Shown piece by piece: positions 15,348-41,200 of a DNA stretch of 64,000 nt. The translations under genes were made by a program, and so were the position numbers. The first letter of the stretch is position 1. The number at the start of each line of letters is the position of its first letter. Location: positions 6,327,098-6,391,097 of the forward strand of contig CAIIXF020000001.1 of assembly GCA_903813345.2 (NCBI GenBank). Reading direction: 5' to 3'. The notes under the pieces were generated by a model. It was not told the origin of the DNA. It made no database searches and saw only the letters and a program-made list of their open reading frames with translations. This DNA is from Owenia fusiformis. Its lineage: Eukaryota > Annelida > Polychaeta > Sabellida > Oweniidae.

Positions 15348-15792
15348 ATGCCGAGTCCCAACCACTTAGAGAGGGATGGCTGGCCCCATGATGTTGGTAT
15401 CATTGCCCTGGAGGTCTACTTTCCTTCTCAGTATGTCAGCCAGAGTGCACTCGAGCAATTTGATGGAGTATCAACAGGGAAATATACGATTGGGCTCGGC
15501 CAAACAAATATGGGCTTTTGCACTGATCGAGAGGATATCAACTCTTTGAGTTTAACAGTTGTTCAAAGGCTTCTTGAAAGGAATAATGTGGACTATAAAG
15601 ATATAGGACGCCTGGAAGTGGGCACTGAGACCATCATTGACAAGTCTAAGAGTGTCAAGACATGTCTTATGCAGCTATTTGAGGACAGTGGCAATAGTAA
15701 TATTGAAGGAATTGACACAACTAATGCCTGCTATGGGGGCACTGCAGCTCTCTTTAATGCATTCAACTGGGTCGAGTCAAGCTCATGGGATG
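15348..15792 (+). CDS. HMGCS1: HMGCS coding exon 1
   Basis: Codes for residues 1-148 and the first base of codon 149. The ATG comes directly after acceptor tttttctctatttcag, so one or more non-coding 5' exons must lie upstream. The exon contains both Glu94 and Cys128 of the active site. It ends TGG-GAT-G before donor gtaatatt. Confidence 0.93.
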
Positions 15793-18700
15793 GTAATATT
15801 TAATATTATTTTCTAATAATTTAATCTAAAGGGCAACCAATGTCAGCCTAAACTTCTTAGAATGCATTTTATTTTATCTTCATTTTATAATCACTTGTTG
15901 GACCATCTTGTAGTCTTGCATACTTCAGCAATTTATGAGAATTAAAGATTAAAATAATTGACCCTGACATCACCAAGTTTTGAGCTAATTCTATTATGGC
16001 ATGTGTATTTCAGGTCGGTATGCCTTGGTTGTGACTGGAGACATTGCTGTGTATGCATCAGGAAGTGCCAGACCTACTGGTGGGGCAGGTGCCATTGCAA
16101 TGCTCGTTGGGCCCAATGCCCCAATTGTTCTGGAGAGAGGTAATGTATACACCTCTTCTGGTTATATACTAATGAGAAGGATGAAGAGTGTTAGAGAGTA
16201 ACTATTTTACAGTTTTTGCTCTCATCATTTCATGCCATCTCTCCCTATTTTTTAAAAGGTCCAACATTTCTGACCTTATTTCAGGTTTTTTTAAGGTTTA
16301 ACCTTTTCTGACACCAAATCAAAAACAGGATGTTCTTTTTCAATTCATTAATGAATTTGAATTTAAATCTTCAATGATGCTTGATATCTCAATTCTTTTT
16401 TCAGAATATAAGTTCAGAATAAGTAAGATTACATGTACTTCCAATATTTTACATTCCTTATATATCCCATCTTATTCTTTAAGGGATTTTCCCTATAGGT
16501 TTACAAATTAATAATATTTAATATTTAAGTGTCCTTTTTTTGATAAATGGACATATGAATAAAATCTTGTATATGTGTAGTATGATGCAACATTTTGGCT
16601 AATCTCCTTTCAAAGATCATAAGTTTAAGTAGGTATGGTATTAATGTTTACAATGTGTTGACAATCCCATTCATGTACATGTACATTTTCATATAACAAA
16701 AATTCTAGGCTATTAAAAAACAAAAATTTCTATCTATTTGTAGTACAATCACAAACATTTACATTTATTACCTCATTGTGGACATGATAAATTTATCATT
16801 TTCTCAGGACATTATTGTGTTAATAATTCACTGTAGACAAATTGCTGTTATAACCTAGCTCTCGGAAAGATGCAAGTTCAGAAACCAAGCAGTTCTATAT
16901 TTATCTTTGACAGCTTTAAATATTTTTTCATTGCCTTAATGCCAACTTTACAAGTGTAAAGTCTATTAGTTCAATAGCAAAGCAAATGACAAGGTCTAAA
17001 TTAATGATGTCATTGCTCCTCACTGTCACATGAAACTCTTGTAATACTGTAAATTGCTTTAATTTGTTGGCTGTTTTCATTTGGCGTATTGATAAAAAAT
17101 GTCAAATTGAATTTCCAATTTTTTGAAAAAAAGTGGGGATTTTCATCTAGTGACTTTTCCATGTGTTACCTTGCACAATAAAACTTTTGTGAAAATCTGA
17201 ACAAACAAGGATAAATGTGGATTTTAAACTATTTCTAAGATCTACAGAGTCACTGCTGGTTCAGACAAAACAATCGGATACCAGTGGTGAGCTGTGGAGT
17301 TATACAATTGATTATGATCGGTATGGCAAATGAGGTCGAAGTAACTACAAAAGTTATGATCAGGAGCTGAAAGAGAAAATAAGAAATCACTCAGTGGCAG
17401 ACATTTAAAAGTTCAAGATTTGCCCATCTGCCAAATTAAAAGACATTTACAGTAATGCAATACACTTTAATCATCATGAATACATAATACACTTCAAGGC
17501 AGATCAAGTTATCATTGGTAAGGAACTAATGACAATTAAAATTAGGGAATTGAAATATCGTAAGCTTTTTCCTTCAATTCCCAGTTAAAAATCTCAAAAA
17601 TGAGGTAGACTAAAATCAGGAATCTCCATTAGATCAGGTCCAGGCCTGTCAACTAGGGAGCATCTAACATAAGTGACTGACAAATGTTTAACACCTTTGT
17701 TCAAATTTTGGACACCTTGGTCCAAACCTGAACACCTTGGCCACATTTTCATCACCTTGGTTCAAATTTTATTTCATATAACCAAACTGTGGACACCTCA
17801 AAATTTCTCTCGTTTTCTGTCAACGGGGGGGGGGGGGCGTTCGGTTTTGTGCTGTATCAGTGATCATTTTTTGGAAGTTTTTCCACAGGAATATTTTTTG
17901 CTTTACAATAATCAGGTAAAATATGTATTTGCATGACATATTCTGTCATGCAAAAAAACTTGCGTAACTTGCGTCATGCGTAACTTGCAAAAATGCAAAA
18001 ATCAACAAGCCACATAAAACATTGTCTCCCAAAGATAGGTGTAGCAACTCCATTTAATTAACCTTCATTTAATGTACGTGAATCAGGTAGATTAATTATA
18101 GGATAGTTTTTTGTTATTGAGAGTTGTTTGTTTGTAATTAAAGAAGAAACTTCCATATCATGTTGATGTGATGAAATGTATATGAGCATGTTGACATGTG
18201 TCATCAGAATACCCTAGATGCACGTTGAATGCTGTTCAAAGTACAATTGAAATACATCCAAAGTCCATCAACCTAGAAAGTTGTAGGAGGAAAGATTGCA
18301 AGCTTGCAGAATTTAAACAGTTTGATAACCTATTACATGTAGTTAGAATTCATTAGTCATGTACTTGTTAAGTGCACAGTTAGTGGTAGTACTGGCAACT
18401 GGTAATCGAGTGCTCTCAAATGAATACTTGTCACAGCTGATAGCATACAAGTTATGCTGACACAACTTTTTTACTGAGTTCAATGATAATTTATCTTCTT
18501 AACTGTAAACATCTGAACATGATCATGATGAACTTAATTAAGAAGAATCACTGGTGGTTATTGAAAGGTCACAATGTTGAACATTGTAGCTGATGTAATC
18601 AAGAATTGATTCTTTGTTCTTTATTTTTGTTACAAAGTCAACTTTGAAATACTTGACTTTTTAACATGGATAAGAATACAATCAATCAAAAATGAGTTTC

Positions 18701-21700: not shown

Positions 21701-24700
21701 TGGTAATATTTTAAATTTTTTTATAAAAAAAATATTAGCGAATTCCCCTACGTCGTTTTCATGATTTGTACCAACTTTTGAACAACATGTATTGCATAAT
21801 TCTGTTATAAGGATGCAAAAAAATTAACACATAATGAACCTTGACATGTCATAAACATATCATGAAAAAATCATTCGAATATGCTTATTAAAAATATTAT
21901 AAACAATAAATTCTTAAATCGTGTCTAGCAGAATTATGCAATACATGTTGTAAGAATCATGAAAAAGACATCGGGGGTTCGCTAATATCTTTTTATGAAG
22001 AAATTAAAACTATTACCAACATTAAAACTTAAATATACAAAAGAGGACATTTAAATCTAAAATACGTAAAAATATGAATATCTTTGGCGACATTGATAAT
22101 GTAGAAATATGCAGATGAATTTGGTTCTCCAAACCGAAAATCATTCTTTGGTGAAATGTGCATAAACATTGAAATACATGTAACATTTAGTATGTATTAG
22201 CAAAAATTGAAATAACATTTGAGCTGCAGCATGGATTACTGAATACTGATCACTTGATGAAACCTGGCTATGGGCCTGAATAGTTATCATGATAAACCAT
22301 GACATCTCATTTCTTCTCAGCCCTGAGGTGTTTCAGGTGATGTTTCAGAATGCTGAAAGGGGGAGAATTAACCTGTTAACAACTGACTAGGGTCATGTAT
22401 TTATGTCATTGTTTACTTGGATGTTTCTAGGTGAGCAGGAAGTTCAAATCTCAAGGATATTACTATTGGCACAAGAGGCTTTTCAACATGTTGAGAATGT
22501 GTTAAAATGAAATATGTACTATAATCTGTGTTCTATAAATGTTTTACTTTATGGTTACAAGTTATTTTGAGGGCCTAGTTCTTTATTGTTTGTTAGTATC
22601 AAAGGTCGTGGGGGAAGGCCTGGTTATTAGACTTTGAGCTGCAATTAAAGATGCTCAAAGTTCAGATGTTATATTCAGGACAAGCTATTGTTATTACAAT
22701 CTTTTGTCCAAAGTTTATTATGAACATAAAAAAGAATCTGGTTGAGAGGGGGAGAATAAGGAATGCATTGTTTTGTACACGTGCAAACAACCAATCAACC
22801 AATCAACCAAGTTAACTGCTCAGACAAATAGACAAAATACATGGAATTTATTGGCATCAAATTTATATATGTTCCTCTTGTTGTCACTTCCATGGTATTT
22901 TTATTAATTTTTAAGCTTCTGTGAAATGTATTTCTCCTCAATATGAGAAACCAATTCGATACATTGCTTTTTGAAAATATAAGCTTGTAAAACAGGTTTT
23001 AATATTTTTCAAACCCTTGAAAGAGATAGATTTCCATATTTTGATGATATCATCATAATGAAATGGTTTTAACAGAATTGCATGAAGGCTCTGTAAAATT
23101 CATTTTAAGTTTAACTCAATTTCCTGTTTCCAGGCCTGTAGCCCTCCACCCCCTTCCCCTGGCCAAATGTTTTTCACCATTCTGAGCACTTTTCAAGTAA
23201 TTTGGACCCAAAGTTGTCAAATGTAAACCCCCCCTCCCAGAATTCATTGAAAAACTTTTAACAAAAGATTGCTACAGGCCTGTCTGCAGCTTTGTACTTA
23301 TACATTTTCAAACCCTGGGTATATCATTTCCAAACTTCAGCTCACAGTTGCACTTGATTAGCATTTGAAATCAATTAAAACTTGCACTGACTTATCCATC
23401 CAAATGAAATGCCATATCCTTAAATATCAAAGTCTCTGAACAAACCACTTGACAGCTTGCTTGACATGTCATGTTTTGGTGGTTTCTTTCTAGTAGAACC
23501 AGAACCTCCATAATTCAGAGTCACAATGATCATAATTTAAAGCCTATATACCAAAAATAATCAATATTCCAAATTTCTTTTTTGGGGTTCTGCACCTTTA
23601 TCAAGCAATCTTTGATGACAAAACATCAGTGAAGCATTCCTTATCGAGAACATAATAATGGGGACACTGTTTTTACGTTGCTGTTTCTGACTCATTACCT
23701 GGTGATAATTAAAGTGGGATGAACTGGCTAGATGCTTTAAATGACTACAAAGAACACATAAGGAATAGTTTAAATTGTTGCAAAATACAAACCATCAGAA
23801 ACTTTATTGAACAGTAAAGAAGATGCATTTTATGCTTTTTGTCTTTATTTTATTCATTTTTTCAGCAGATTAAGTATGTTTTCAAGGACACCATGTACTA
23901 TAGGCTGAATGGTAAAAAACTGTGCTACTCAGCTTTTCATGATTGAGTTGGCAAGTTATCAGAAGTTCAGTTGTGGGCTAATAAGTTAACCACTTGCCTC
24001 TTGAGTTAAGAATATATGTAGAGTTTCAGAAATAAAAGACTCTCTAACTATTCATATATGCAGTACACTGTATGAGAATAAAGTTTCTGTATTTTTGGCT
24101 CACACATTGAGCCTATGGGATCGACTAAGTGTCTGTCCGTTGCTCTATTGTTCCATCTGTACATCAATATAGGCTGCACAAATTAAAACTGCTTTTCACA
24201 TCCATTGTCATTTTATGCATATTCATAATTCCTATTTGACCTGTCATCCCCATTTCCCAAGTTCACACGGTTTCTGAGAATTTGCTGATTTTTACAACAA
24301 AAAGTCAAATTTTCTTTAAATACCAGACACTTTGTAGGACTTTCAAATAAGTGGTAGTAGTTGCTGTATATGCAACTTATGTCCTCTGAAGATTCCAAAG
24401 CTCTTGAAATTACAGTTTTTGGTGTTTACTCTATAACATTTGACAAAAAGTAGGACCTGGTCATTTTCAGGGAACTTTGTCATGGCAGGTTTTGTGATTG
24501 ACAAGCTTTTCAAAGTTTGTCACTATACTTCATTATTTCTTGCAATGAATTAAATTGTAACTAGATTTAAGCATTCTTATCTCTACAAATTGCTCAATAC
24601 ATGTCGGCATTACCGTTTTTGAGATATGTCAGACATCAGAAAACGGTAAAAATTACCAGTTATATTTCAACTTGCTTCAATTTGACCTATTGTTTTTTTC

Positions 24701-27700
24701 AAATCTACAAGTTTCCAGGAGTTCCTATCTGACCTTAGTTTTGAAATTTGACCTTCAGTGACCTTACGAAAAGTCAAATATTGATTTCTTGGATTCATTA
24801 ATCACAAGAGACCTACTGAGCTCTGTAAAAGTAAAGTTTTCAATGTCAAGGTCATCAAACTAGGTCACAAACTGTGCTGATTGTGCAAATCAATATTTTG
24901 GGTTGAAAGTCAGGATATACATTTCTCTATCCTCCGATCACAGGGCTTCAAAATCCAGAATATATTCTTTCTTTTTACCCCCTGCGATAAGCAGTTAGCC
25001 TTTCCCCGATTAAGAACTCACAATCTGATTGGCTGTCGCAACACCGCGACAGAAATCATGTATAAGTCATTGCACATAATAAGATCACGTGATTCAGTTT
25101 AATCGGGCGCTTCCAAATTGGTTATAGCAGGGGGAAGAAGGAGGTATGGATTCTGGATACCTGCTTAGGAGGATGACATTTCTCTAATAATAAAGGTTCT
25201 ACACTCTGTGAACACAGGTCCATGGGTCCTTCATGAAATGACCAATGAGGTATTGTTTACCAAAATCTGGCAGTAAACAAAATACAATACAATTCAACAA
25301 TTGACTATCTGCTACTAGATTTATCTAGCAAAGTTTTTTTTCAGATCAAAGTCAACATGTTGATTCGACACATGTGTTAAGCATGTCAAGCGACATCCTT
25401 CTTTGTGTAATGTTAATGCATAACGGCATGTATCTGCGAACAATATGTTGATGCAATTTTATTAAAGATAAGATTATACATGTACATGCTCTTCCTTCAT
25501 GACTTGAAAATGCCATTCTTTACCCCAAACCTTAGCAGTACTTAGAGATTGCGTTCAATTATCAGCAATATTGTGGGAAAACAAATTTTTCAATGTGGTT
25601 TGACTCCCCCCCCCCTCCCCTCATCTAAAGAAGTTTTAAATACTGATTTGTCTTTCACTTGAATATTTATAAAATCAACACTATTCGCTAACGAAACCAT
25701 CATTTACCCCTTCCCCTGACGAAACTAACTGCGATCTGATGGTAATAGGACACCATTCCTTCTACAACGTTGTACATCAATTTCAGTATTGCATTCATAC
25801 CTTTGCAAAGTCGGAAAGAAGACAGAAGAATCAATGAAAACTGAGTTGACTACTTTAATAGCCATTTACTCTCTCTCGCCCTAAATTGAATCATGAGGTG
25901 CACATTGATTGATTTGTGTGATTCCTGTCAGTTGGATTGATTGGGTGATTGATTGATTAATTCATTTGGTTGATTGATTGATTGATTGATAATTGATTGA
26001 TTGATGTATTGACATTGTGTATTTGCAGGACTAAGAGGCACACATATGCAGCACGCCTATGACTTCTATAAACCAGATATGGCTTCAGAATATCCTGTAG
26101 TTGATGGGAAACTCTCAATACAGTGCTACCTGGGTGCATTAGATAAATGTTATAGTTACTACAAGGATAAATGGAGGGCAAAGAATAAAGGTATGAGACC
26201 CCTAAAATGGTTATGACCCATCTCAATTTGGAAGAACTTTGTTCTGGGCCCTTACCCTTGAAACACTCAGATGAATGTGTAGTAATTTGTATAATGGAAT
26301 ATCTTGAAAATTTGGATATTTTGAGCATTTGTCCATTTGTCAACAAAATACATTGTCAGATAAGAAAAATGAAACTTTGCAACACAGTTTAATATCCTGG
26401 AGAACACTGCTATATAAACAAATAGACTATGAATTCGAGTAATTTGTTTTTTGTAAAATAAAACCAGGCTCAAAACTTAGTTTACAGGGACTAAAGTACA
26501 TTCTGTATGTACAAGTTTAGGGTCCAGGTCAAGCCAACATTCTTTAACGCAATTATTTAAATTATTTGTAATTTATTCTACTTAATTCAATATCAATGTA
26601 TTTAAAAATAAATTGATTTAAGTTTAGAAAATCATTTGACATTTTGATCAGGTCTTCTATTAAATCTTCTATCATATTTATTAATAGTAAAGAATTACAG
26701 CCACTTAAAGTTCATAATGATATGATAAAACAGTGTCACTCTAGTCTCAGTCCTCTAATCTCTAACAACAAATTATGTTTTTAAAGGTACACTATCTTTT
26801 TTATTTCATGTAATCTTATAAAAACCAATACATTGCATGTAATTAACACTCAAGTAAAGCAAGGATCTCTCTAAATCTCAGAGCTTGTTGAGTGTAAGAG
26901 CAAATCAGTTGCTTCAGCAATATTTTGCAATTTTTTTTTTAAAGAACAAAACAGAGATGCATAAAGTTGAAATGATAAATGCTCAAATCTATATTAAGAG
27001 TATCCAATATATTTATTAGATGCCCTTATGTAAATGTGGTAAAATGTTACATAATTAAAAATATTGTTTCTAGTTTAGGACACCTGTATCATTTTCAATA
27101 AGTTCAAAAATTGGATTAGAACTGAGTTCCAACAAAGTTTCTGCAGAAGAGTGATTGACAGCTGTAGCTGTAGTTTATTTTGTGTGAGATTAAGCAGATT
27201 TTTTAAGTCAAAAAGTAAATTGTACGAAATTCTTGATATGCCTTGGTAAAATGCCATGCTCCTTGCATTACCAAAATCAAACATTCCCATGATTATATGT
27301 GATTGAAACAATGCGTTTGACGTCATTATGGCTGCAAATTGAGTATGAACATAATTTTGCAATTGTATACTATGGTCTATTCAGATTTATTCAAATCCCA
27401 GACATAACTGAGTATTATTGTAAACTTAAACATATGTTCACTACTTATTTTTCAGACAGTCAAACATTTAGTCTGTCAGACACTGATGCCATTGTGTTTC
27501 ACTCCCCCTACTGTAAGCTAGTTCAGAAGTCCCTCGCACGTCTGTTCATGAATGACTTCCTTAGTGACCCTAGCCCTGACTACCAACACAAGTACCCTGG
27601 CCTGGAGGCATTCAGGTAAGATGCATCCTCATGTATGCTATTGTCTAAAGGGATAGGTGGGCATTCACCGGGACTTTGAACAGCTCTATCCCTTGGGTGA

Positions 27701-30700
27701 GAGGTGGATAAGTTGCTTTTTCAAACAAACATGTAAATATTTTTATTTTATGAGTTCAATGGTTTTAATACACATTACAAATTAGTATACAATTGATATA
27801 CATTTCATGAAGTTATGCATAAAGTAATAATTTTGAGGAAAATATTAGGCCAAGGATTTACTTGTGATTCTCAAAGATGGCAGGCTAGTATAAGAGCTTA
27901 AGCTAGATGTAGAGTAAAAATGATACCTTATACTTGTTGAAGTTGTACATTCTGTCTGAGTTGATTATAAGCCAAAGTATATAAAATCCAGAATCTGTTC
28001 TTCACCGCCCGATGCAAAGTCGGAAATACTTTTGTGTTATTCAATTGTTGTTTCTCATAACTAAAAAAGTTGTTGAAACATATTTTGAAAAAGATTGAAA
28101 GGAGTTGGGTAAACTAGCAACAGAGAGTGCCCCAATTGAAGTGTGAAAAAACTTTTTTTAAGAATAGGAGAAAAAAAACATCAGAAATGCATAGATTGAA
28201 GTCTATATTTTTGGGTAGTATTTTTTAAAAAATTTAGAAAAAATTGTTACGGTGTCTGGAGACCTTCAAAGAGGGTGGGGGCCAGAAGGAAAAAAATTCA
28301 CATATTTTGCAACCCTCTTGATGAATTCCAATTTACTCAGCTATAAATGAATGTTTTTGATTTATCTGTCCAGGATTATGTAAATATATATTTATTTGAT
28401 CCATACATACAATTGATTTAAACAATATGTACAGTTTAGAGGTAAGTAAAGCTTTGAAAGGACATTTCATGCTTAGTCTGGGTGACATTTTTATTCACTG
28501 GAGGTAGTAATCCTTTGAGTGTTTTCACATAGAGCATAACAAGTCTCCACTCTAATAAGTGCTTCTTTAGTTACATAAATGTTATATTGTTGCATACAAA
28601 GAATAATTTTGATGGAGACTTATTATGCTCGATGTGAATTTTAGAACTTTATAGAAAATTTTGCCTGCCATTTTTGTTGATTATTCAAAATGGCCAAATG
28701 CTATTCATATAGGCTTCGCTAGGCACGAGGGTTACAAAGCCAAAGAAAAACCCCTGCAAGGGCATTATAAAATTTTAGATGCTAAAATACCTGAAACATC
28801 AAGTGGTTATATGTGCACAACATCATAATCAGGTAGTTTAAGTGATGATGAGTAAAACTAATCAGAAAATGTTTCATTGTTATTTCATTAACAAGCCAAT
28901 GATGAAATGTGTTGAGATTTTAGATGTTTTTCACCTTTTAGGTGATCTCCAAGAAGTGATTATCTCCATTATCTGTACTCACTGTTTCCTAGACATTATC
29001 AGAATGATTGATAATAAACTTAATAGTTGCTTTAAAATTATGTTGAATAATATCATTATGTTGAATTATAATATATACAGTGTGTGTGTTTAGTGTGTGG
29101 TTTTTAGCATACCCTATGTCGCTAACAGGAAGCAGGACATATTTCTCATAAAAAATAAACATTACTTTACGAGTCAAATCATGAAATGTACACTCTGAAT
29201 TTAAATGAATTAAAAATAATAAAGTATTTTCATTATTTTAGGTACTTTTGTTCTCTTTCAGTGTTGCGTGGGAAGGGCGGAATATATTAATATAAATATC
29301 TCATTATTGGCAAATTGCCAATTTACTATATATTGTAATTCCAACCTCTATGAGACTAAATTCCTACAGATATTTGTGATATTTTAACCAAAAAGGTATA
29401 TTTTGGTAGAAAATAATGAATTTTTTAATTTGACCTTGACCTGGGGAATATGACCTTGACCTAAATTTTCATACATTTTTGAAACACATATATCACATAG
29501 ATTAATAAAATAAAGAGAAAACTTGAAAATCAGGTGGGGCTTAAAATGGCCTTGTTTACCCAACTCCTTAGAGAAAAAGTTACTGCATGTGCTTTCATAG
29601 TTTGAAACTCGTCTTTGACATGTACCTTGGGAATACCATTTACTGGAGTGTGCCAACTCATGTAGAAATACTTTCATTTGCAAAAATGTGAAGTCATGTG
29701 ACGACTTCTTTTTCTTTTACCCAAATAAACGTGTCCACTTTATTATATAATGTCATTTCTTTTTTCAGAGATGTGAAGCTTTGTGACACTTACTTTGACC
29801 GTGATGTTGAGAAAGCATTCATGGCAGCCAGTAAGGGTTCATTTGAGGCAAAGACCAAACCATCTCTCCTGCTTGCCACCAATGTAGGCAACATGTACAC
29901 TCCTTCACTCTACGGAGGTCTAGTCTCATTCCTGGCAAGGTTAGTGCACTACGCTTAATAATGATGGTTAGGCAGGTAGAGTGTGTAAGCAAATGGGATT
30001 GGCCTCAGGTTATTTTCTTATTATCCTACACTTAGTGTACTAAATGTTTAATAACATGAAAAAATAAATTTGATATTTATTGGCAAAATGAATATCCGGA
30101 GGATATCGTAACGATATACTCCGGGCGGAGGATATCGTGACGATATACTCCGGAAAACCCAGTATGCGGAGGATATTGTGACGATATACTCCGCTTGTTG
30201 ATTTCCCGCCAAATTGACTCTATTTGGCACAAATTCATTTTACAATGATATTATACATTCAGTACACTCCTTGTAAGTGTAGGATAATAAGAACATCCTA
30301 TGATTTTTTTCAGAATATCATTTTAATCTACTCGGTGATATTGATATATGCACTCGTTCGTTTCGCTCTCTCGTGCAGATATCAATATCACCTCGTAGAT
30401 AAAAATGATATTCCTATAATTATTTAATGAGCAAGATCATGTATCAAGAATAAAACTCATGAAAGAAAAGTAGAACTCGTTGTGAGTTTTGGAAGTTTTG
30501 TTAATGTATATTCTGTTATGTACTAAACTCATGGGGTTTCTGCAAAGTAATTGATTAATTTAAGAGGTGTTGTTACTCCAAAGAACGTCTTTCACTCATC
30601 CTAGCTCCCTAGATCCCTAGCAAATAAACCGCTATAAAAAGAAGTTTCTCTGACTTTGGAAATATTGTTTCAGTCGTCCAATAGAGGGCCTAGTTAAAAA

Positions 30701-32104
30701 GAGGGTGCTGCTGTTCTCCTATGGTTCTGGCCTGGCCTCATCCATGTATTCACTGAGGATCACATCTGACAGGTTTGTTTGCCTGTTTGCATGATCAATA
30801 TTTTGTTTGTTTTCTCAATATTGCCTCCTGATGCCATTGCATCTTTATTATGAATTTAAAATTTTTCTTTTAATATGATATTTTTGCATTTGAAATCATT
30901 ATTACAATAAGAGGAAAATATAACAAGGAAAATATGATGGTTGTGTCTATTGTGACCAAAGCATTCCAAGTGTGACATTCACAGGCCTACTATGAATTAT
31001 GGACCATATCCTTATTTATATCGCAATACCATGATATTTTACTTTCATAAATATAAAATATTCTGCCTCATAAATCCAGTAAATAAATAAATGAACATAT
31101 ATATGCAATATGCAACATGTATATGCAAAATGTTGGCAATGATAATCTAGTTGGTTGGTTTGTTTGTTTTGACTATGCCACATCTACATGCTTCAGGGCT
31201 CCAGGGTCAGCTCTAGAAAGATTGGTGACAAGTTTAGAAGATCTACAGGCCAGGCTGGAAAGTAGAGAACAGGTGGAGCCACGAGTCTTTGAGAAAACTA
31301 TGAAACTTAGAGAGGAGACACACCATTTAGGTATTTTTGGAAATTGCAGAATATGATATTTAATTCAGTATTAGAAATGACTGAAATTATAATGTATTAA
31401 GTATGGCTGCTTATTCAAAATAATTGCAACTTTTTTATAAAAAACATAATTTTGATAACTTAAATACTTGCTGTCTGGTTTGGTTCTGATTTTATGTACT
31501 GATGTCTTTTAAAATGATGTCATGGCGTGTCATTGGTGAAGATTTTGCCCAAAGAAGACAATACTACTGCCTGGTTAATTTCTATCATGTTATGTTCAAA
31601 GTGACTAATTATTTGATAAAATATCACAGTTTTGTTCCTTGGGATTTGCTACTCCAAGTGTTGTTTTTTTACTGAAAGATGGCAGTGGTTTATTTATGTC
31701 TTCTCTTTCACATAGGAGAATGATTCTGAAATTACATTTATCGCAAAAAGAACTCTTATAACCATAATTAGAATTTGAACAAAAATTATTGAAACAACTG
31801 TTCTTTGCTCAGTTAATAGCTACATTTATCATTTCAAATTGTCACATTGCCTGCATTTATTATGGCCTTCATAACCTCATACATCTTTCTAATTGCAGCC
31901 CCATATAACCCAGTAGGTTCAATTGAAGGCCTTTTCCCATGTACTTGGTACATCACAGCTATAGATGAAAAACATAGAAGACAGTATGAAAGAAAACCAG
32001 CCATCTCTCCCACAGATGGAAGGCAGCTAAAAGCTACTGAATCAAAAGTTGGTGAACTAAGTTTGAATATTGAAATTCAAATCAAGTCCAAATTATCATT
32101 ATAA
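15348..32104 (+). CDS. HMGCS1: Hydroxymethylglutaryl-CoA synthase, complete, eight coding exons
   Basis: Condenses acetyl-CoA with acetoacetyl-CoA to HMG-CoA, the step before HMG-CoA reductase in the mevalonate pathway. Coding exons are 15348-15792, 16014-16139, 26029-26190, 27456-27615, 29769-29939, 30674-30772, 31197-31330 and 31899-32104. They total 1503 nt, exactly 500 codons plus TAA, all with GT-AG borders and agreeing phases. Signature parts are [29 protein letters not shown] with catalytic Glu94, [11 protein letters not shown] with nucleophile Cys128, and [12 protein letters not shown] with His260. There is no mitochondrial presequence, so it matches the cytosolic form (symbol by similarity). 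Vertebrate HMGCS1 is about 20 residues longer at the C-terminus. Intron 2 is unusually long at 9889 bp. The last exon may have an alternative ending (see the 62 bp array). Confidence 0.95.
16014..16139 (+). CDS. HMGCS1: HMGCS coding exon 2
   Basis: Residues 149-190, reading [17 protein letters not shown] and then [20 protein letters not shown], a highly conserved thiolase-fold stretch. Acceptor atgtgtatttcag, donor gtaatg, phase 1 at both ends. Confidence 0.93.
17641..18012. mobile_element. Partial copy of the CAGGCCTGTCAAC inverted-repeat element
   Basis: Begins caggcctgtcaac like 54643-55505. It shares the repeated caccttggtccaaa blocks, a 12-base G run and the segment around gtatttgcatgacatattctgtcatgcaa. 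The right end is decayed, so its border is approximate. Confidence 0.7.
19465..19780. repeat. Degenerate minisatellite, ~40 bp sub-unit, ~151 bp higher order
   Basis: Repeats of cattgtttacaactcatttg and gttgtttgcaagttggtt. The block at 19468 recurs at ~19619 with few changes. Open frames across it on the plus strand are by-products of the repeat. Confidence 0.75.
20250..20680. repeat. AT-rich fold-back with gatattgatat motifs
   Basis: Contains gatattgatat on both sides of gagtgagcgcagcgaatga, plus inverted tttatcccatggg-type blocks near 20378 and 20641. Similar motifs occur at 30325-30420. Confidence 0.5.
21590..22130. mobile_element. Fold-back element, arms ~250 bp
   Basis: The arms meet near 21860. 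Matching inverted blocks include cagaattatgcaatacatgt (right) against its inverse at ~21789-21808 (left), and agatttaaatgtcttctttt (left) against its inverse at ~22040-22060. No transposase. Confidence 0.8.
23131..23282. mobile_element. 152 bp MITE with CAGGCCTGTAGC ends
   Basis: Perfect 12 bp inverted ends (caggcctgtagc and gctacaggcctg) with C-rich inner flanks. It resembles 3265-3430. Confidence 0.75.
24951..25159. mobile_element. ~210 bp inverted-repeat element
   Basis: Imperfect ends around atccagaat and attctggat, with inverted ccccctgc blocks inside. Its left flank (cacagggcttcaaaatccag) recurs inverted at ~7694-7715, so it is dispersed. Confidence 0.6.
25900..26012. repeat. TTGA/GATT microsatellite before HMGCS exon 3
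   Basis: Runs of gattgattgatt just upstream of the exon 3 acceptor at 26028. Confidence 0.9.
26029..26190 (+). CDS. HMGCS1: HMGCS coding exon 3
   Basis: Residues 191-244, with [15 protein letters not shown] and [17 protein letters not shown], the conserved CoA-pocket region. Acceptor gtgtatttgcag lies next to a TTGA microsatellite; donor is gtatga. Phase 1 at both ends. It follows the 9.9 kb intron. Confidence 0.93.
27456..27615 (+). CDS. HMGCS1: HMGCS coding exon 4
   Basis: Residues 245-297, with [15 protein letters not shown] containing active-site His260. The loop before it is a few residues shorter than in vertebrates. Acceptor acttatttttcag, donor gtaaga; enters phase 1, leaves phase 2. 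Confidence 0.93.
28525..28637. repeat. Small fold-back with ~24 bp arms
   Basis: cacatagagcataacaagtc (left) pairs with gacttattatgctcgatgtg (right), with a few mismatches. Confidence 0.7.
29769..29939 (+). CDS. HMGCS1: HMGCS coding exon 5
   Basis: Residues 298-354, with [18 protein letters not shown] and [14 protein letters not shown], typical of the HMG-CoA synthase C-terminal domain. Acceptor cattcttttttcag, donor gttagt, phase 2 at both ends. Confidence 0.92.
30012..30296. mobile_element. Fold-back element carrying three 27 bp quasi-palindromes
   Basis: The outer arms are cttattatcctacactta (30017) and its inverse (30274-30291). Inside, a 27 bp block beginning cggaggatat and ending gatatactccg occurs at 30097-30123, 30126-30152 and 30167-30193. 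Each block is itself nearly palindromic. Confidence 0.8.
30325..30420. repeat. Fold-back with gaatatcatttt ends
   Basis: gaatatcattttaatctac pairs with the inverted gtagataaaaatgatattc, with inner gatattgatat pairing too. Confidence 0.7.
30674..30772 (+). CDS. HMGCS1: HMGCS coding exon 6 (too short for an ORF scan)
   Basis: A 99 nt exon reading [19 protein letters not shown] followed by [13 protein letters not shown]. This corresponds to the family motif around FSYGSGLA-x2-YS. Acceptor aatattgtttcag, donor gtttgt, phase 2 at both ends. Without it the frame of the gene would not close. Confidence 0.92.
31197..31330 (+). CDS. HMGCS1: HMGCS coding exon 7
   Basis: Reads [20 protein letters not shown], then a Glu-rich turn, then [14 protein letters not shown]; the MKLRE-x-THH motif is diagnostic of eukaryotic HMG-CoA synthase. 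Acceptor ctacatgcttcag, donor gtattt; enters phase 2, leaves phase 1. Confidence 0.92.
31899..32104 (+). CDS. HMGCS1: HMGCS coding exon 8, terminal
   Basis: Reads [19 protein letters not shown], then [13 protein letters not shown], then a variable tail ending in TAA at 32102-32104. The conserved core stops at about RRQYERKP; the tail after it does not resemble the family. Inside the tail, GTT-G|GTGAAC at 32051/32052 is a possible phase-1 donor. It could splice the gene into the downstream repeat units instead of ending here. Confidence 0.88.
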
Positions 32105-32289
32105 TTTTATAACATTCTGAATTGTATAAAGCATTGTATTATATCGAGAACAATGTTCAAATATTTCAATAATCAGGTGCACATTTTTCCTCTGCAAATA
32201 CCAACTAAACCTAAACAAAAATAATACATATTACTATTCTAAATAAGTGTGTTCATGTTTTAGTCTCTTTCAGTAATATTCTCATATTT

Positions 32290-32925
32290 TGTTTCTTTAT
32301 GTATTTCAGTCCCTTACTCAAAAAGGGAACACAGACAGTAATGTTCATATTCATTTCTTTATGCATTTCAGTCCCTTACTCAAAATGAGAACACAGACAG
32401 TAATGTTCATATTCATTTCTTTATGCATTTCAGTCCCTTACTCAAAAAGAGAACACAGACAGTAATGTTCATATTCATTTCTTTATGCATTTCAGTCCCT
32501 TACTCAAAAAGAGAACACAGACAGTAATGTTCATATTCATTTCTTTATGCATTTCAGTCCCTTACTCAAAAAGAGAACACAGACAGTAATGTTCATATTC
32601 ATTTCTTTATGCATTTTAGTCTCTTACTCAAGACAAGAACACAGATAGTAATGTTCATATTCATTTCTTTATGCATTTCAGTTCCTTACTCAAAAAGAGA
32701 ACAAAACTCAAAAAGAGAACACAGACAGTAATGTTCATATTCATTTCTTTATGCATTTCAGTCTCTTACTCAAAAAGAGAACACAGACAGTAATGTTCAT
32801 ATTCATTTCTTTATGCATTTTAGTCCCTTACTCAAAAAGAGAACACAGACAGTAATGTTCATATTCATTTCTTTATGCATTTCAGTTCCCTACTCAAGAC
32901 AAGAGCACAGACAGTAATGTACAAC
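32290..32925 (+). repeat. 62 bp tandem array, ten units each with an acceptor-like site and a mini reading frame
   Basis: Ten units, with AG ends at 32309, 32371, 32433, 32495, 32557, 32619, 32681, 32761, 32823 and 32885. The spacing is exactly 62 bp, except one unit of 80 bp with an 18 bp internal duplication. Each unit has a pyrimidine-rich run ending in ttctttatgcatttcag (two units have tag). In phase 1 it then reads (V)PYSKREHRQ and a TAA stop. Units 2 and 6 stop early through TGA and TAG. The last unit reads VPYSRQEHRQ and runs into unique sequence. The array begins ~200 bp after the HMGCS stop. Confidence 0.95.
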
Positions 32926-33030
32926 AGGCAGCCATATGAAGCCTCCAGCTGAAATGTAATCTCTACCTAGGATGTATTCATTATGATAGAAGCTCATAAC
33001 AATTAAATAAACACAAAATCGGATTTACCT
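32886..33030 (+). other. Candidate alternative last exon of HMGCS
   Basis: The last array unit, followed by unique sequence and the first clear AATAAA after the gene. Joined to the cryptic donor at 32051/32052 it would give a 493-residue protein ending KVVPYSRQEHRQ. The KVP stretch resembles the position of a conserved KVP in the tail of vertebrate HMGCS1. Splicing here is inference; the site layout and phase are seen. The 3' border is an estimate. Confidence 0.35.
33006..33011 (+). terminator. Polyadenylation signal AATAAA for HMGCS
   Basis: First AATAAA downstream of the HMGCS stop, ~900 bp past it and ~90 bp past the stop of the last 62 bp unit. It suits a last exon in the array better than one ending at 32104, although a long 3' UTR is possible. 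Confidence 0.5.
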
Positions 33031-34454: not shown

Positions 34455-35845
34455 TTATAGAGCTATAGCTGCAGCTCTTGTTTTTAACATGTGTTTGACA
34501 CTTAACATTATCTTCACATACATTCTGTAGTCTAATGCTTCATTTTTTCCTAGTAAGACCTCCATTTTTTCAACCATATTATATCCATCAAATATTCTGT
34601 CACTTAAAACTGCCAACAAGTCACACCTACTTTCATGAAGTTCAAGGCAATCTAAGAGAAAATGCCTTGTCGTTTCATTTGTCATCCCACACAGAGGACA
34701 AATAGTGTCATAGTTGAGTGGGAAAGCACCTGTTAGCTGTTTTACCATATCCCTACACATCCCTATATATTTACAATTCGATTGACAGATTCTCCACCAT
34801 ACGCAAGGTTTTATCGTAACTTGTATCGTTCTATAAACGCTAAGTCTGTAAGATATGTTACATAACAAGTGCCATCTGTCTTCTTCATACTGCATTATGC
34901 GTGCTTTAACAATCCGTTTCCACGCACATTTGGGCATCAGGTCATAATTCAAAAAATATTCATCAATATATCGCCATAAATTGTATCTTGTCACAAGGTT
35001 CAAAACTGCATTTATTACTGAATAGTTGCTATACAACTTTGAATGTTCAGAAATTGACTTCCATCTAAAGAACTCAATTATAAAAATCATTTTATACACA
35101 CATGTGGTTGGTAGATTTAGGATACACCACAGAAACATTAACTTTTTTGTATCTATGACCGCACGAATCCTCGACCAGCCCAGTTGTGCCAAGGAAGCTT
35201 CGTTATGCACATTACATGGCAATTGTTGAATACGTTTTGCTATTTGTCTATGTGTCAATTCAAGGGTATCATAATCACATTGTTTCAATGGCAGGATATC
35301 CATACCGTATGTCATGGATGGTACCGATATGGACCAATATAAAATAGAGGCCGTCAATGGATTGTATTCGAAGGAGTCACTGCTGAGAAGCCCCACTCCC
35401 GCGTTGATAGCCCTTCTAGCCTTTCCCATTGCATTATCAATATGTTGTTTCAAGTTACCATTTGTATTTAAAATGAGACCCACATGTGTACATTCTCTGA
35501 CATGATCCATTTTATCTGGTCCAAGGTAAAAACACAAGTCTTTGCGGCCCTGTCTCTCTTTAGTGCAAACCATCAACGTTTTTGACTTCCCAGGGTGGAA
35601 GGTGAAACGCCATCGTGTACTGAAACGATATGCTATGTCCAGTAATGTTTGTAAGTACCTTGGGAACACAGCCATGAGGATCAGGTCATCGGCGTATGTG
35701 GGTGAGGTTACATTAATATTGCCGATTCTGCATCCAGCATTGCTTTGTTCGAGTTCCTTTAAGAGGCTATTTGTGAAACGCATATAGAGCATCAAACTAC
35801 AGACACCCCCCTGATGGACTCCCTGGTTAAAGGGGCAATAAGGAC
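34455..35845 (-). pseudogene. 5'-truncated non-LTR retrotransposon reverse transcriptase (LINE)
   Basis: The open frame covers 35873-34455 on the minus strand, 472 codons with TAA, but recognisable RT starts near residue 17. Seen: GVHQGGV (RT motif B, residues 18-24), YADD (motif C, residues 60-63), FHPGKSKTLMV, then a long C-terminal domain with a CCHC knuckle at C392, C395, H404 and C409. RT motif A and everything before it (fingers, endonuclease) are missing, so it cannot be active as it stands. This is the usual 5' truncation from incomplete target-primed reverse transcription. The first ~16 residues are probably flanking DNA, so the Met is not a real start. The frame has no internal stop, so the insertion is fairly recent. 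A CR1/L2-like clade is likely but not proven. Confidence 0.85.
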
Positions 35846-35873
35846 TGTAGAGAAAATAGGAAAGTTTTTTCAT

Positions 35874-37134
35874 TTTTTCTGAGCTATCAAGGCAACATTT
35901 GGTTTAACATCTTCTTTGACATACCTATTTTCTTAAAATGTATGGATAAATTATCAATTTCAGCATTAAAAGTGTAAATTCAGTTCAAAGCTTCAAAAAG
36001 GGGACTTCCACTTTTATATTTTTAAGATCCACCATGTTTCAAGAGGAATATGAGCTAAAATAATGTTTATCTAGGGGGTTTCTTTGTAGATAATAAAAAT
36101 AGATGTTAGTCTTGATGAAATATCCAAACTTAAATATATTTTGACACTGGTCCATTATCGTTGAATGACCCCTCTGCTCTAATTATTGCACCTTTAACGA
36201 AGAAAGGATCAGACATAGATTTTCCCACTCTAACCGGCCCTGCATTGATAATCCGAATACCAAATTTTCAAAATTCTCCATATTTTCCCCTTGAAACCTT
36301 GGTTAAAGAGTATTCTTAAACTACAGCATATATTTATGATTGATAAAAATGCATGTCGATAATGATTGATATTTTGAACACATTTTTGTGATTTGAACTA
36401 AGAGATTTTTGTTTGGTTATATATTTACTCTCTAATATGAATTTGCACACCTCAAATGTGTCTCAGTGGAACGCCCATGATCCAAGTTGCTTAATTGAAC
36501 TTAAAACATCAGAACAATTAGCACTTTTTGTACAGCAAATGGGAGTTAAGAAGCGATGGATATAAGACTGTGTAATCTAATATTAAGTATGGTCAGCTTA
36601 AAATGTGTGAATGGAAAAATCCTGTGAAAAGTCAATTGTGAGACACATTTTCAGACTAATGCAATGTTAATATTAACCAAATGTAATGATTTACGTTAAA
36701 CTATCTTTGCATAATGCAACGTCCACATCCACTTGTCGCCAGGTTAAATAACTCTTGCAAATATAGAACAATGTTATAATGAGTGGAAATCGCAGCTGAA
36801 AAGCTCACTTTTGCTTTCATTGTTTAATCTGTATGCGGCATGTATTGTATTTCACATAGAAGTGTTTGTGAGTGTCAACACTAGCTCATCAAACATTAAC
36901 TGGCGAAGGAGATTAAAGGAATTACGTAATCCTTAAACTAATTTTAACCAACATTGTTCAACACCTAGAATTCTCTAGGTATGGAGGAATATTATGTGCA
37001 ATGTATTTCCATCTTCATATGACAAATAGAACTCATGTTGTCCTATTTTTGTTAGGAACAGTGTGGTATGGCTGACCAGAGGCACATAATAATTTTATAT
37101 CTCTGAGTTGACAAACAAATGTGTGCAGACCCTA
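35874..37134. other. Intergenic, nothing recognised
   Basis: AT-rich sequence between the LINE fragment and the minisatellite. No coding or repeat structure was seen. Confidence 0.5.
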
Positions 37135-38222
37135 GTCACAATCATTTACCACACACAATTTTAAGTGGACACTATAGTCACAATCAGTTGCTACACTCAA
37201 GCGTAGCCATACCCTTGTCACAATCATTCACCACACATAATTGTAAGTGGACACTATAGTCACAATCAGTTTCTGCACTCAAGCGTAGTCAGACCCTTGT
37301 CACAATCATTTACCACACATAATTGTAAGTGGACACTATAGTCACAATCAGTTGCTGCACTCAAGCATAGCCATACCCTTGTCACAATCAGTTGCTACAT
37401 TCAAATGTAGCCATATCCCTGTCATAATCATTTGCCACACACACTTGTAATTGGACACTAAAGTCACAATCAGTTGCTACACTCAAGTGTAGTCAGACCC
37501 TAGTCACAATCATTTACCACACATAATTATAAGTAGACACTAAAGTCACAATCAGTTGCTACACTCAAGCGTAGCCATACCCTAGTCACAATCATTTACC
37601 ACACATAATTATAAGTAGACACTATAGTCACAATCAGTTGCTACACTCAAGCGTAGCCATACCCCTGTCACAATCATTTGCCACACACAATTGTATGTGG
37701 ACACTATAGTCACAATCAGTTGCTACACTCAAGCGTAGCCATACCCCTGTCACAATCATTTGCCACACACAATTGTATGTGGACACTATAGTCACAATCA
37801 GTTGCTGCACTCAAGCAAACCTATATCCTCGTCACAATCATTTATCACACACAATTGGAAGTGGATACTATAGTCACAATCAGTTGCTGCACTCACTGCA
37901 CTCAAGCGTAGTCATACCCTAGTCACAATCATTTATCACACACAATTGTAAGTGGATACTATAGTCACAATCAGTTGATGCACTCAAGCGTAGCCATACC
38001 CTTGTCACAATCATTTATCACACACACTTGTAAGTGGACACTGTAGTCATAATCAATTGCTGCACTCAAGCGTAGCCATACCATTGTCACGATCATTTAT
38101 TACACACAATTGTAAGTGGACACTATAGTCACAATCAATTGCTACACTCAAGCGTAGCCATACCATTGTCACGATCATTTATCACACACACTTGTAAGTG
38201 GACACTGTAGTCACAATCAGTT
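37135..38222. repeat. 82 bp minisatellite, about 13 units, built from two ~41 bp halves
   Basis: Each unit has gtcacaatcatttaccacac..gtggacactata and then gtcacaatcagttgct..caagcgtagccatacc. Both halves begin gtcacaatca, so the unit is an old dimer. Unit starts at 37135, 37217 and 37299 show the 82 bp spacing; one unit near 37380-37500 is rearranged. Confidence 0.92.
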
Positions 38223-41200
38223 GGCACCTAATGGCTATATTCATTGAAAGTAGATTCATGTCACATTCAGTTTACGACAGACTACAGTTGCGACTAGCAC
38301 CATCAATTCAATGGTTGGCAGACTCTGCTCACTTTCAGTCTTAAAATGTTGGAGTCTTAAATGCAATTAATAGTAGTTTTTGAATTTAGATCATTAAATA
38401 TAAAATATTATTTTCGTCCTCAAAAATAACTTGAACGTAACAGATGTCTAATAAACGTTCTAAAAGGATAGATTTGTTCTTATTAATACTGAACATTTTT
38501 ATGTCATTTATAGCTACTTTTTATTTTATTTTGTCAATGTAGTGAGATGGACGTCCTTGGTTTCGGCTAACTGTTTTTGTCCCAGACACTAATTCACTAT
38601 ACAGTATACCACAAAGTATAATATCCATGTGGGATTATGCATTTTTGGTCCAAGGGTATTTCACATCTTTCCATTATCTGGGCGTAAAGATACAGATCGC
38701 ATTTGGGGCGGATGAGAAGTGATAAGTTAAATTGGTGCAATCGGAAAATACAATGTAAAAACACGACAGCTTTAATTTTAAAAAAACAATCGTAATAAAT
38801 AAAATATTAAAGGCTAACGTAATTATTAGATTCATGTTACAATATGTAAGTATTTCGAATACATGAAACATGAAAATGTTCCAGTAAAATTACAATCGCA
38901 TCATGTTCTTATATTTACCGACGAATTAGTAAATCATACTGCATGTATTTACACAGGTTGTTGTATTGTATGAAAACAGTTTGAACAATTTTCACAAAAT
39001 TCGAACTACTCTATTCAAAGTGAACAAAGGTTCCAATATGCAGGAACGTTTTAAATTCAGTATCTGCAACATTGACAGTGCTTTTGTAACAAAATGTTGA
39101 AAATGTATGTAGTAAAACCTGCTTTTATTGAATAGTTTTGGCTGAGAAAAAAACGTCTTGGTAGGTGTTCACTACAGGCCAATTTATTCAGAAGTCAGTA
39201 GAGTGTGTCCACTAGAGACAGCTGTTCACTAGAGAGAGGTGTTCACTTCGACGGGTTTTACTGTATAAATCACATTTGGCTACAATTTTTAGTTTAGTTC
39301 AATTAGCTAAATTAGCTCTAAGCCACAATAAAATGGTATATCTTCATAAATAAACTTAAATATAAACGACAGTACGGAATATTCAAATACTGTTGGGTCG
39401 TACAAGTTCTAAAATTAATTATTTTTCTACCATTTTGAGAACATATTGGCCATTTGTTACTGAATTTACGTAAAATCAATGTTTTACATCACAGTTTAGT
39501 AATTAAGTAGTTAATGCATGGATACTTTACTCATGATCAATATAGTATGAGGATAAAACCTGGATTTAATTCCCCTCTACTCTGACACTACCCTCTGCGC
39601 AGAGTCTAGTTACAAGACGATGCTTTCTTTTAAGAAACGAAGTCGAACGAATGCAAATGCTCAGAACAACCCATTTGTCCAAATCACTTCTGTGATGAAG
39701 ATCTGAGTGGTCAAATCAAATGTATATTTCTCGCATTAAGTGCCATTGACTTGTTCCACGTTTAAGTTTTACTTTTTGTGATATAATGTTATTGTAATGT
39801 ATATTTCTAAAATAAATCAATCACTATATTTATTAAAGCAATAGCATGAACAATGAAGGTATTTGTTTATTTATTTAGAGACAGTTTCGAACGTCCATAA
39901 GTTAATATTTTATATAAAGTATATCATTTTGTTTAGAGAAAAGATATTATAAATCCAGCAATGCAGTGCGATTCATTTTAGAAGTTTACTCACAACGAGA
40001 AACACTATATAATAAACATCAATACGACGAGATAATAGATTTATTATCCAAATTGAATAATAACTGATAAGATCAAGTACTGTTGAATAACATTCTGTCC
40101 GGGATTTGTTATTAATCATATAGAAATGTCTTATCCGAACAGCAGCTTACGTATTATCCGTTGCGGCCATTAACAATTTTACATATCTAATTAGCTAAGT
40201 AAATAAACATGCGTCGACACAGTCGCAGTTGACTATGAAAAGTTCAATCATCAATCTTATTTTTATTTTCTTGATTTAAAGATTTATTATGTTTAAAAAA
40301 GAAAATGTTTGATTTTTAAGTTCAACCTTTAATTCTTATTATCAAGAACGCGCCAACCATGTACATTGTTTGCAGTCTGCGCAAGTTAATGTAAATTATT
40401 GTATATTTTTCGATATACTGTAATACTATTCATTATTTGTAAAATTGAACCGAATATAATCTAAAATTAATCAGCTTTAAATACATTATATGTCATAAAA
40501 GTTGCCTTAAAACAATACATTTCGTGCGTTTGTAAATGCTCTAAAGCCCCTCTAGTATATGAACGAATCCTAAATAGAAATGAGTAAAATTCGTTCTCAT
40601 TAGTGTGTACACGTCCTACATCGAGACTTCTCCTTTAAATCAAATCAGTCCACAAGTATGAGTTAAGAATGGACAGAGGGACGGATGGCTTCATTCATTC
40701 ATTCAATGGGATAATTAAGATATTTCAAAACCAGTGTCATTCTTCTGTCTATGCGAGGATATAGGTCCATGATCACTCCAATCATAACATAAAACAAGCT
40801 GTTTATTTTAAAACTATTCTTTACGAATTAATGATAAGTGTATAATGTTCAATCATACAAATCGCAGTCAGTGATTGTTCTCCACACTCACCCCTCCCCC
40901 TTCCTGACATGAACTATTTTGTAAAACCATTGACAGTGTGGAAAGGATTCTTACACTCGAGTGTCAAGGGGGGGGGGGCAGTTACAGAAATATACAAGGC
41001 GATGGTTCAAATTGGACAATTTTCAAAACTGCTCAACATGGTGAAAACTTCACGTTTTTAAAGAATGCTTGCCCGGCGAGTGGTTTGCTCTGGACTGCGA
41101 AAGAACAAAAACTTTGAGTTAGGATTTTTCCTAATACTATCATTAATCTAAACAACTTTTTAAACCGTCTCTGACTACATATCATGCCAATTAATACCAT

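Follow-up and report, generated by a model that had tools for sequence, protein, structure and literature searches.

Splicing-related repeat arrays and tandem exon duplications are already known kinds of change within genes. For example, as far as the accessible parts of the papers go, an intronic variable number tandem repeat (VNTR) of ABCA7 bears on splicing (PMC5954066), exon 4 is duplicated in an earthworm metallothionein gene (PMC12783039), and a paper on lacewing venom mentions exon duplications solely in a wasp serpin gene (PMC12758981). Here we describe a 64,000-nucleotide (nt) stretch of the genome of the annelid Owenia fusiformis (contig CAIIXF020000001.1, positions 6,327,098 to 6,391,097; hereafter the window, numbered from its first base), in which the gene for 3-hydroxy-3-methylglutaryl-coenzyme A (HMG-CoA) synthase, HMGCS, with eight coding exons on the plus strand (15348-32051), lies immediately 5' of a tandem array of ten short units. 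Judging from the sequence, the array is probably the ancestral last exon of HMGCS, amplified in tandem together with its acceptor, and the transcript would join exon 8, at 32051, to one of its units. Among the matches listed in a limited search of the open literature, there was no HMGCS last-exon array or terminal-exon minisatellite, and no repeat whose unit comprised an entire coding last exon, its acceptor and stop included.

The first-pass annotation of this DNA had described ten tandem units of 62 base pairs (bp), each with an acceptor and, in phase 1, the frame (V)PYSKREHRQ plus a stop, with two units stopping early, and this description was borne out. Tandem Repeats Finder returned the array with a period of 62 bp, 9.9 copies and a score of 886, a head-to-tail arrangement of units of tens of bases that makes it a minisatellite. 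The G of the acceptor falls at 32309, 32371, 32433, 32495, 32557, 32619, 32681, 32761, 32823 and 32885 in units 1 to 10, so that eight of the nine spacings are 62 bp and the remaining one, that of unit 7, is 80 bp. The 21-mer TTCTTTATGCATTTCAGTCCC, with up to three mismatches allowed, occurred ten times in the window, every time inside the array, and never in 100 shuffles. In phase 1, units 1, 3, 4, 5 and 9 encode VPYSKREHRQ and a stop, and unit 8 encodes VSYSKREHRQ and a stop; the early-stopping units are 2 and 6, the latter by a single residue, and there are six distinct tails among the ten units. Since the predicted protein would have 493 residues and an identical or nearly identical tail with seven of the ten units, 499 with unit 7, 492 with unit 6 and 488 with unit 2, the choice of unit would alter it little. 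As sequence motifs, an acceptor of its own and a compatible phase, the attributes of a tandemly duplicated exon, were found in all ten units. The acceptor itself had been given as ttctttatgcatttcag throughout; this is exact for seven units, the other three differing by one base (...TATGTATTTCAG in unit 1, a final TAG in units 6 and 9).

Donors, acceptors and tracts were scored with generic animal weights, the scores being meaningful as ranks within the window and not in absolute terms. Among all AGs of the window, eight of the ten unit acceptors ranked within the top 2.1% and the remaining two within the top 4.4%; just one of the seven accepted HMGCS acceptors reached the rank of those eight. 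Each unit also has a TTCAT, picked out by eye and left unscored, which we take to be branch-point-like. A further good acceptor, at 32273 (TCTCTTTCAG, region 32271-32309), lies just 5' of the array; it shares the phase of unit 1, and its use would place 12 more residues, VIFSYFVSLCIS, ahead of VPYSKREHRQ. Because the period of 62 bp is 2 modulo 3, reading through consensus units from any entry frame ends at the ...VPYSKREHRQ stop, a property that the early-stop or 80-bp units may break. We also considered the units as internal micro-exons of 28 nt ending in ACA/GTAATG, the hexamer GTAATG being identical to that at the donor of HMGCS exon 2; this was not favoured, as the donor scored 1.77, lower than all eight donors of the gene model.

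The gene upstream of the array is a eukaryotic HMG-CoA synthase. Specifically, the whole protein matched the equivalog model TIGR01833 over its full length (profile 1-457 of 457) at 761 bits, above the cut-off of 286.2, both PF01154 and PF08540 were matched over their full profiles, and the eight exons, which use AG acceptors and GT donors, connect into one reading frame. Residues 14-466 align with the solved human cytosolic enzyme, and the conserved family match stops at residue 465-466 of 493 (about base 31996-31999), in agreement with the earlier statement that the conserved part of the enzyme finishes 5' of the proposed donor. The tail is not comparable with the human one, since the solved human chain stops at the residue aligned to 466; the human tail, KKVPRLP, lies beyond this end, and the likeness between KVVPYS and the vertebrate KVP proposed in the first-pass annotation is a tentative one.

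The proposed donor, TTG/GTGAAC, is present at 32051/32052 and leaves exon 8 in phase 1, as had been noted. Coding character on its two sides was compared with a position-specific base model; the overlapping coding windows that served as reference were scored without the exon from which they came (held-out). The 17 codons 5' of the donor scored +2.4 bits and the 17 codons 3' of it -9.2 bits, a value as low as which was seen in none of the 355 held-out coding windows (minimum -5.7), whereas 14% of 4715 open intron windows scored at or below it; in addition, the GC content of this downstream segment is 0.25, the minimum of the coding windows being 0.27. The drop in score and the low GC content past 32051 argue that coding character ends at the proposed donor and that the following sequence is intron.

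These data bear on an alternative that we consider unlikely yet deserving of real weight, namely that the protein ends by read-through within exon 8 (stop at 32102-32104) and that the array is an ordinary unspliced minisatellite, in the 3' untranslated region (3'UTR) or just 3' of the gene, whose likeness to acceptors is accidental. The frame does stay open for 17 codons beyond the donor, the family models finish before either tail and so cannot discriminate between them, and the window contains other arrays, such as one with an 82-bp unit at 37129-38223. Read-through would, however, make coding sequence of 17 codons that resemble intron, and would leave to accident the high ranking of eight of the ten unit acceptors.

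The polyadenylation signals provide a further argument. Among the 12 hexamers scanned, AATAAA (33006) and ATTAAA (33002) are the sole copies of these two from the read-through stop to 33060, and both lie 3' of unit 10, consistent with the earlier observation that the first clear AATAAA follows the last unit; a protein ending by read-through would thus have no AATAAA or ATTAAA between its stop and 33002. None of the 12 hexamers was found between units or inside the array, so that the units would be alternative acceptors with a common 3' end, and a separate polyadenylation signal for each terminal exon was not found, the signals coming only after the last unit. The same absence between units speaks against the idea that the units are regulated alternatives, in which full, truncated and extended tails differing in stability or location would act as a functional switch. 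Six distinct tails and acceptor scores that vary from unit to unit might suggest such a switch, but the variants resemble the ordinary drift of an array, and we regard it as very improbable.

The borders of the array point to what was duplicated. The heptamer CAGTAAT stands before unit 1 and recurs where nine of the ten units have their stop codon, unit 6 having TAGTAAT there, and the copy at 32271 is in register with the CAG-TAA-T that closes the unit frames; on the other side, 3' of unit 10, likeness to the units ends a few bases beyond the stop codon. This register, together with the end of likeness past unit 10, suggests that the duplicated segment began inside an intron and finished at the last exon's stop codon.

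Comparison of the units over 62 positions, with the insertion of unit 7 excluded and unit 1 left ungapped, showed that units 3, 4 and 5 are identical and that units 2, 7, 8 and 9 are one change away. Pairwise differences were 0-2 among units 2-5 and 7-9, 5-15 for unit 6, 9-15 for unit 1 and 5-15 for unit 10, with unit 6 having three changes in common with unit 10. Divergence is therefore found mainly at the edges, on the intron side of unit 1 and on the exon side of unit 10, while the interior is nearly uniform except for unit 6, the usual sign of an array that may have grown and been homogenised from within. The exon halves of units 1, 2, 6, 7, 8 and 10 contain bases by which each can be recognised, whereas those of units 3, 4, 5 and 9 do not differ. 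Distinct substitutions numbered 10 in the exon half (units 1-10) versus 1 in the intron half (units 2-10; binomial p 0.016), or 7 versus 1 with the exon count restricted to units 2-9 (p 0.08); this excess was set aside, as the strongly diverged intron half of unit 1 was uncounted and edge effects explain the pattern.

Several results weigh against amplification of an ancestral last exon. First, the proposed donor is weak: its score of 3.49 is the second lowest of eight (the other seven HMGCS donors score 3.24-11.46), and the window has 3474 GTs, 12% of which score at least as high. Second, 20% of random 103-nt segments contained a donor this good in the right phase, and in 56% of cases a random sequence reached a stop within 11 codons, both figures coming from first-order Markov sequence built on 26191-31898; at these rates the coincidence of frames is not strong evidence, and phase agreement and the short frame were dropped as arguments. 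Third, the coding likeness of the unit itself was not clear-cut in the held-out test, in which 23-48% of coding windows scored at or below the unit frame, 11-21% of open intron windows scored at or above it, and phase 1 was not the top-scoring of the three frames in unit 1; it was favourable only in-sample, with a codon model less fair than the held-out test (5.4% and 3.1% of open intron windows scoring as high as units 1 and 10, respectively), and was likewise dropped. Fourth, the conserved part of exon 8 scored just -5.6 bits over 33 codons, which marks the composition model as rough. Fifth, the flank likeness did not reach significance under free local alignment (p 0.09 on the left, 0.13 on the right), so that its weight comes from the register and not from the alignment score. 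Sixth, an excess of silent changes gave no firm signal. In unit 10, which keeps its stop, three of six exon changes are clearly silent (p 0.21), or four of six with an ambiguous one counted (p 0.05); units 10 and 1 together gave 4/7 or 5/7 (p 0.10 or 0.02) and all units 5/10 (p 0.11), and with five ways of counting spanning p 0.02-0.21 the argument was dropped. The early stops of units 2 and 6 show that constraint is not on every unit. Finally, weaker hexamers lie 5' of the array (TATAAA 32125, ACTAAA 32204 and AATACA 32223), between the read-through stop and unit 1, where they, like the weak donor, would suit a protein ending by read-through.

A stronger donor, CAG/GTGCAC at 32176, lies 3' of the read-through stop and counts in the same direction. 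With a score of 5.69 it exceeds the in-frame donor and two of the seven other HMGCS donors, and joined to the good acceptors of the units (133 nt to unit 1) it would form an intron lying within the 3'UTR, the protein ending by read-through and the array supplying alternative 3'UTR acceptors. This arrangement would still need the read-through tail to be coding despite its intron-like composition, and its junction, 72 nt past the stop, could expose the messenger RNA to nonsense-mediated decay; a 3'UTR intron in such a position would be unusual for a housekeeping enzyme, and we hold this arrangement to be quite improbable.

On balance, we continue to favour an amplified last exon, the proposal of the first-pass annotation, which is supported in part: the CAGTAAT borders, the end of coding character at the donor and the position of AATAAA/ATTAAA speak for it, and its argument from the frame and the donor proved weak. 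Its caveat that ordinary minisatellite growth would look the same is right, and is compatible with an origin from an exon, as the array may be a minisatellite whose unit is the last exon; in our reading, the mechanism would be ordinary and the content unusual. In the ancestral gene, codon 483 would have been followed by a short intron and then by a tiny last coding exon of ten codons and a stop. A segment from the interior of this intron to just beyond the stop would have been duplicated between two CAGTAAT matches, after which unequal exchange would have raised the number of units to ten, every one supplying TTCAT, a T-rich tract, AG and a terminal frame in a common phase. The transcript would then be spliced from 32051 to a unit that most likely stands early in the array, given the usual preference of the spliceosome for the nearest good AG, and translated to the stop of that unit, with the remaining units carried as 3'UTR and cleavage taking place after 33006. 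The sequence itself shows the units with their frames, the gene model, the matches at the borders, the step in composition and the polyadenylation hexamers; that the donor is used, what the ancestral gene looked like and which unit is chosen are what we infer from them. A stronger version, in which the units are ten functionally redundant terminal exons, with equivalent acceptors of which nearly all would complete the same protein, free variation in copy number, decay of single units and a protein terminator tolerant of frame, is put forward as a tentative suggestion, for which we judge the chances to be rather low.

The coordinates of the features are collected in Table 1.

Table 1. Features of the HMGCS gene and of the adjoining array in the window
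Feature	Position	Strand	Basis
HMGCS coding exon 1, starts at ATG	15348..15792	+	exon model
HMGCS coding exon 2, donor GAG/GTAATG (split at the boundary)	16014..16139	+	exon model
HMGCS coding exon 3	26029..26190	+	exon model
HMGCS coding exon 4	27456..27615	+	exon model
HMGCS coding exon 5	29769..29939	+	exon model
HMGCS coding exon 6	30674..30772	+	exon model
HMGCS coding exon 7	31197..31330	+	exon model
HMGCS exon 8 to the proposed donor TTG/GTGAAC, phase 1	31899..32051	+	exon model, family matches
Read-through tail to its stop, composition intron-like	32052..32104	+	17 codons (32051-32101) against held-out windows; GC 0.25
Intron of the alternative reading, from donor CAG/GTGCAC (exon end 32176), entirely past the read-through stop	32177..32309	+	donor score 5.69
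Left border of the array, CAGTAAT ahead of unit 1, containing a good in-phase acceptor AG (32273)	32271..32277	+	flank comparison
Array of ten units, each with acceptor and putative terminal frame (mostly 32 nt including the stop)	32292..32920	+	Tandem Repeats Finder, unit reading, motif search
Unit 1, putative terminal frame through the stop, tail VPYSKREHRQ	32310..32341	+	phase-1 reading
Unit 2, putative frame with premature stop, VPYSK and stop	32372..32388	+	phase-1 reading
Unit 6, putative frame, VSYSRQEHR and stop, one residue short; acceptor TTTTAG	32620..32648	+	phase-1 reading
Unit 7, putative frame with in-frame 18-bp insertion, tail VPYSKREQNSKREHRQ and stop	32682..32731	+	phase-1 reading, unit comparison
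Unit 10, putative frame, VPYSRQEHRQ and stop, adjoins unique downstream sequence	32886..32917	+	phase-1 reading, flank comparison
Overlapping ATTAAA and AATAAA	33002..33011	+	hexamer scan

At the 5' end of the gene, a good acceptor, TTTTTCTCTATTTCAG (window 15328-15350), finishes at the base directly before the HMGCS start codon, so that coding exon 1 is probably preceded by an untranslated first exon. Goat HMGCS1 is given 11 exons in the accessible part of its description (PMC12062802), which assigns no position to the last intron. The second long minisatellite of the window, that with the 82-bp unit at 37129-38223, lies about 4 kb 3' of HMGCS and was returned as two adjoining finder rows of 3.2 and 10.2 copies, and tandem duplication was also returned at 59178-59558, in two rows that overlap (periods 136 and 116 bp, 90-91% matches). 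On the minus strand, an open stretch of 482 codons at 34458-35903 has a reverse transcriptase match (PF00078, 41.8 bits) and probably belongs to a retrotransposon lacking long terminal repeats (non-LTR). A long open frame on the plus strand, from 61883 to the window end at 64000, matches the endonuclease families PF14529 and PF03372 and the PHD-finger PF00628; it contains the peptide GDTHQNPGP, which we take to resemble a 2A-like motif.

Searches for relatives with the HMGCS protein gave one unconfirmed pattern match in viral contigs, where a DNA pattern search gave none, and 12 pattern matches, none of them confirmed, in genome contigs; no eukaryotic relative was found in these collections. 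Such misses say little, because the collections searched are viral or prokaryotic.

If splicing does occur from 32051 into the units, ten nearly identical natural acceptors would be vying for one donor with scant consequence for the protein, a clean setting for studying how the spliceosome chooses by distance among equal sites. The locus would also show the turnover of a coding last-exon array and the tolerance of a housekeeping gene for minisatellite growth over its stop codon. For annotation, caution is advisable, as an automatic model may run past the donor or settle on an arbitrary last exon.

Compared with known systems, the locus has features of several. Like alternative last exons and tandem alternative acceptors as generally known, it would have several acceptors vying for one donor near the 3' end; unlike alternative last exons, its units have one common polyadenylation cluster, and their products would be mostly near-identical. 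Like the VNTR of ABCA7 (PMC5954066), it is a tandem array within a gene that may bear on splicing, but that VNTR is intronic by the title of the paper, whereas the HMGCS unit appears to carry a complete acceptor, a terminal coding frame and a stop. The earthworm metallothionein gene, as far as the accessible part of its description goes (PMC12783039), offers a further likeness, namely tandem duplication of a short exon in an invertebrate gene with minisatellite-like repeats of its own; the HMGCS array differs from it in having ten copies, a near-strict period of 62 bp and a unit that is a putative last exon.

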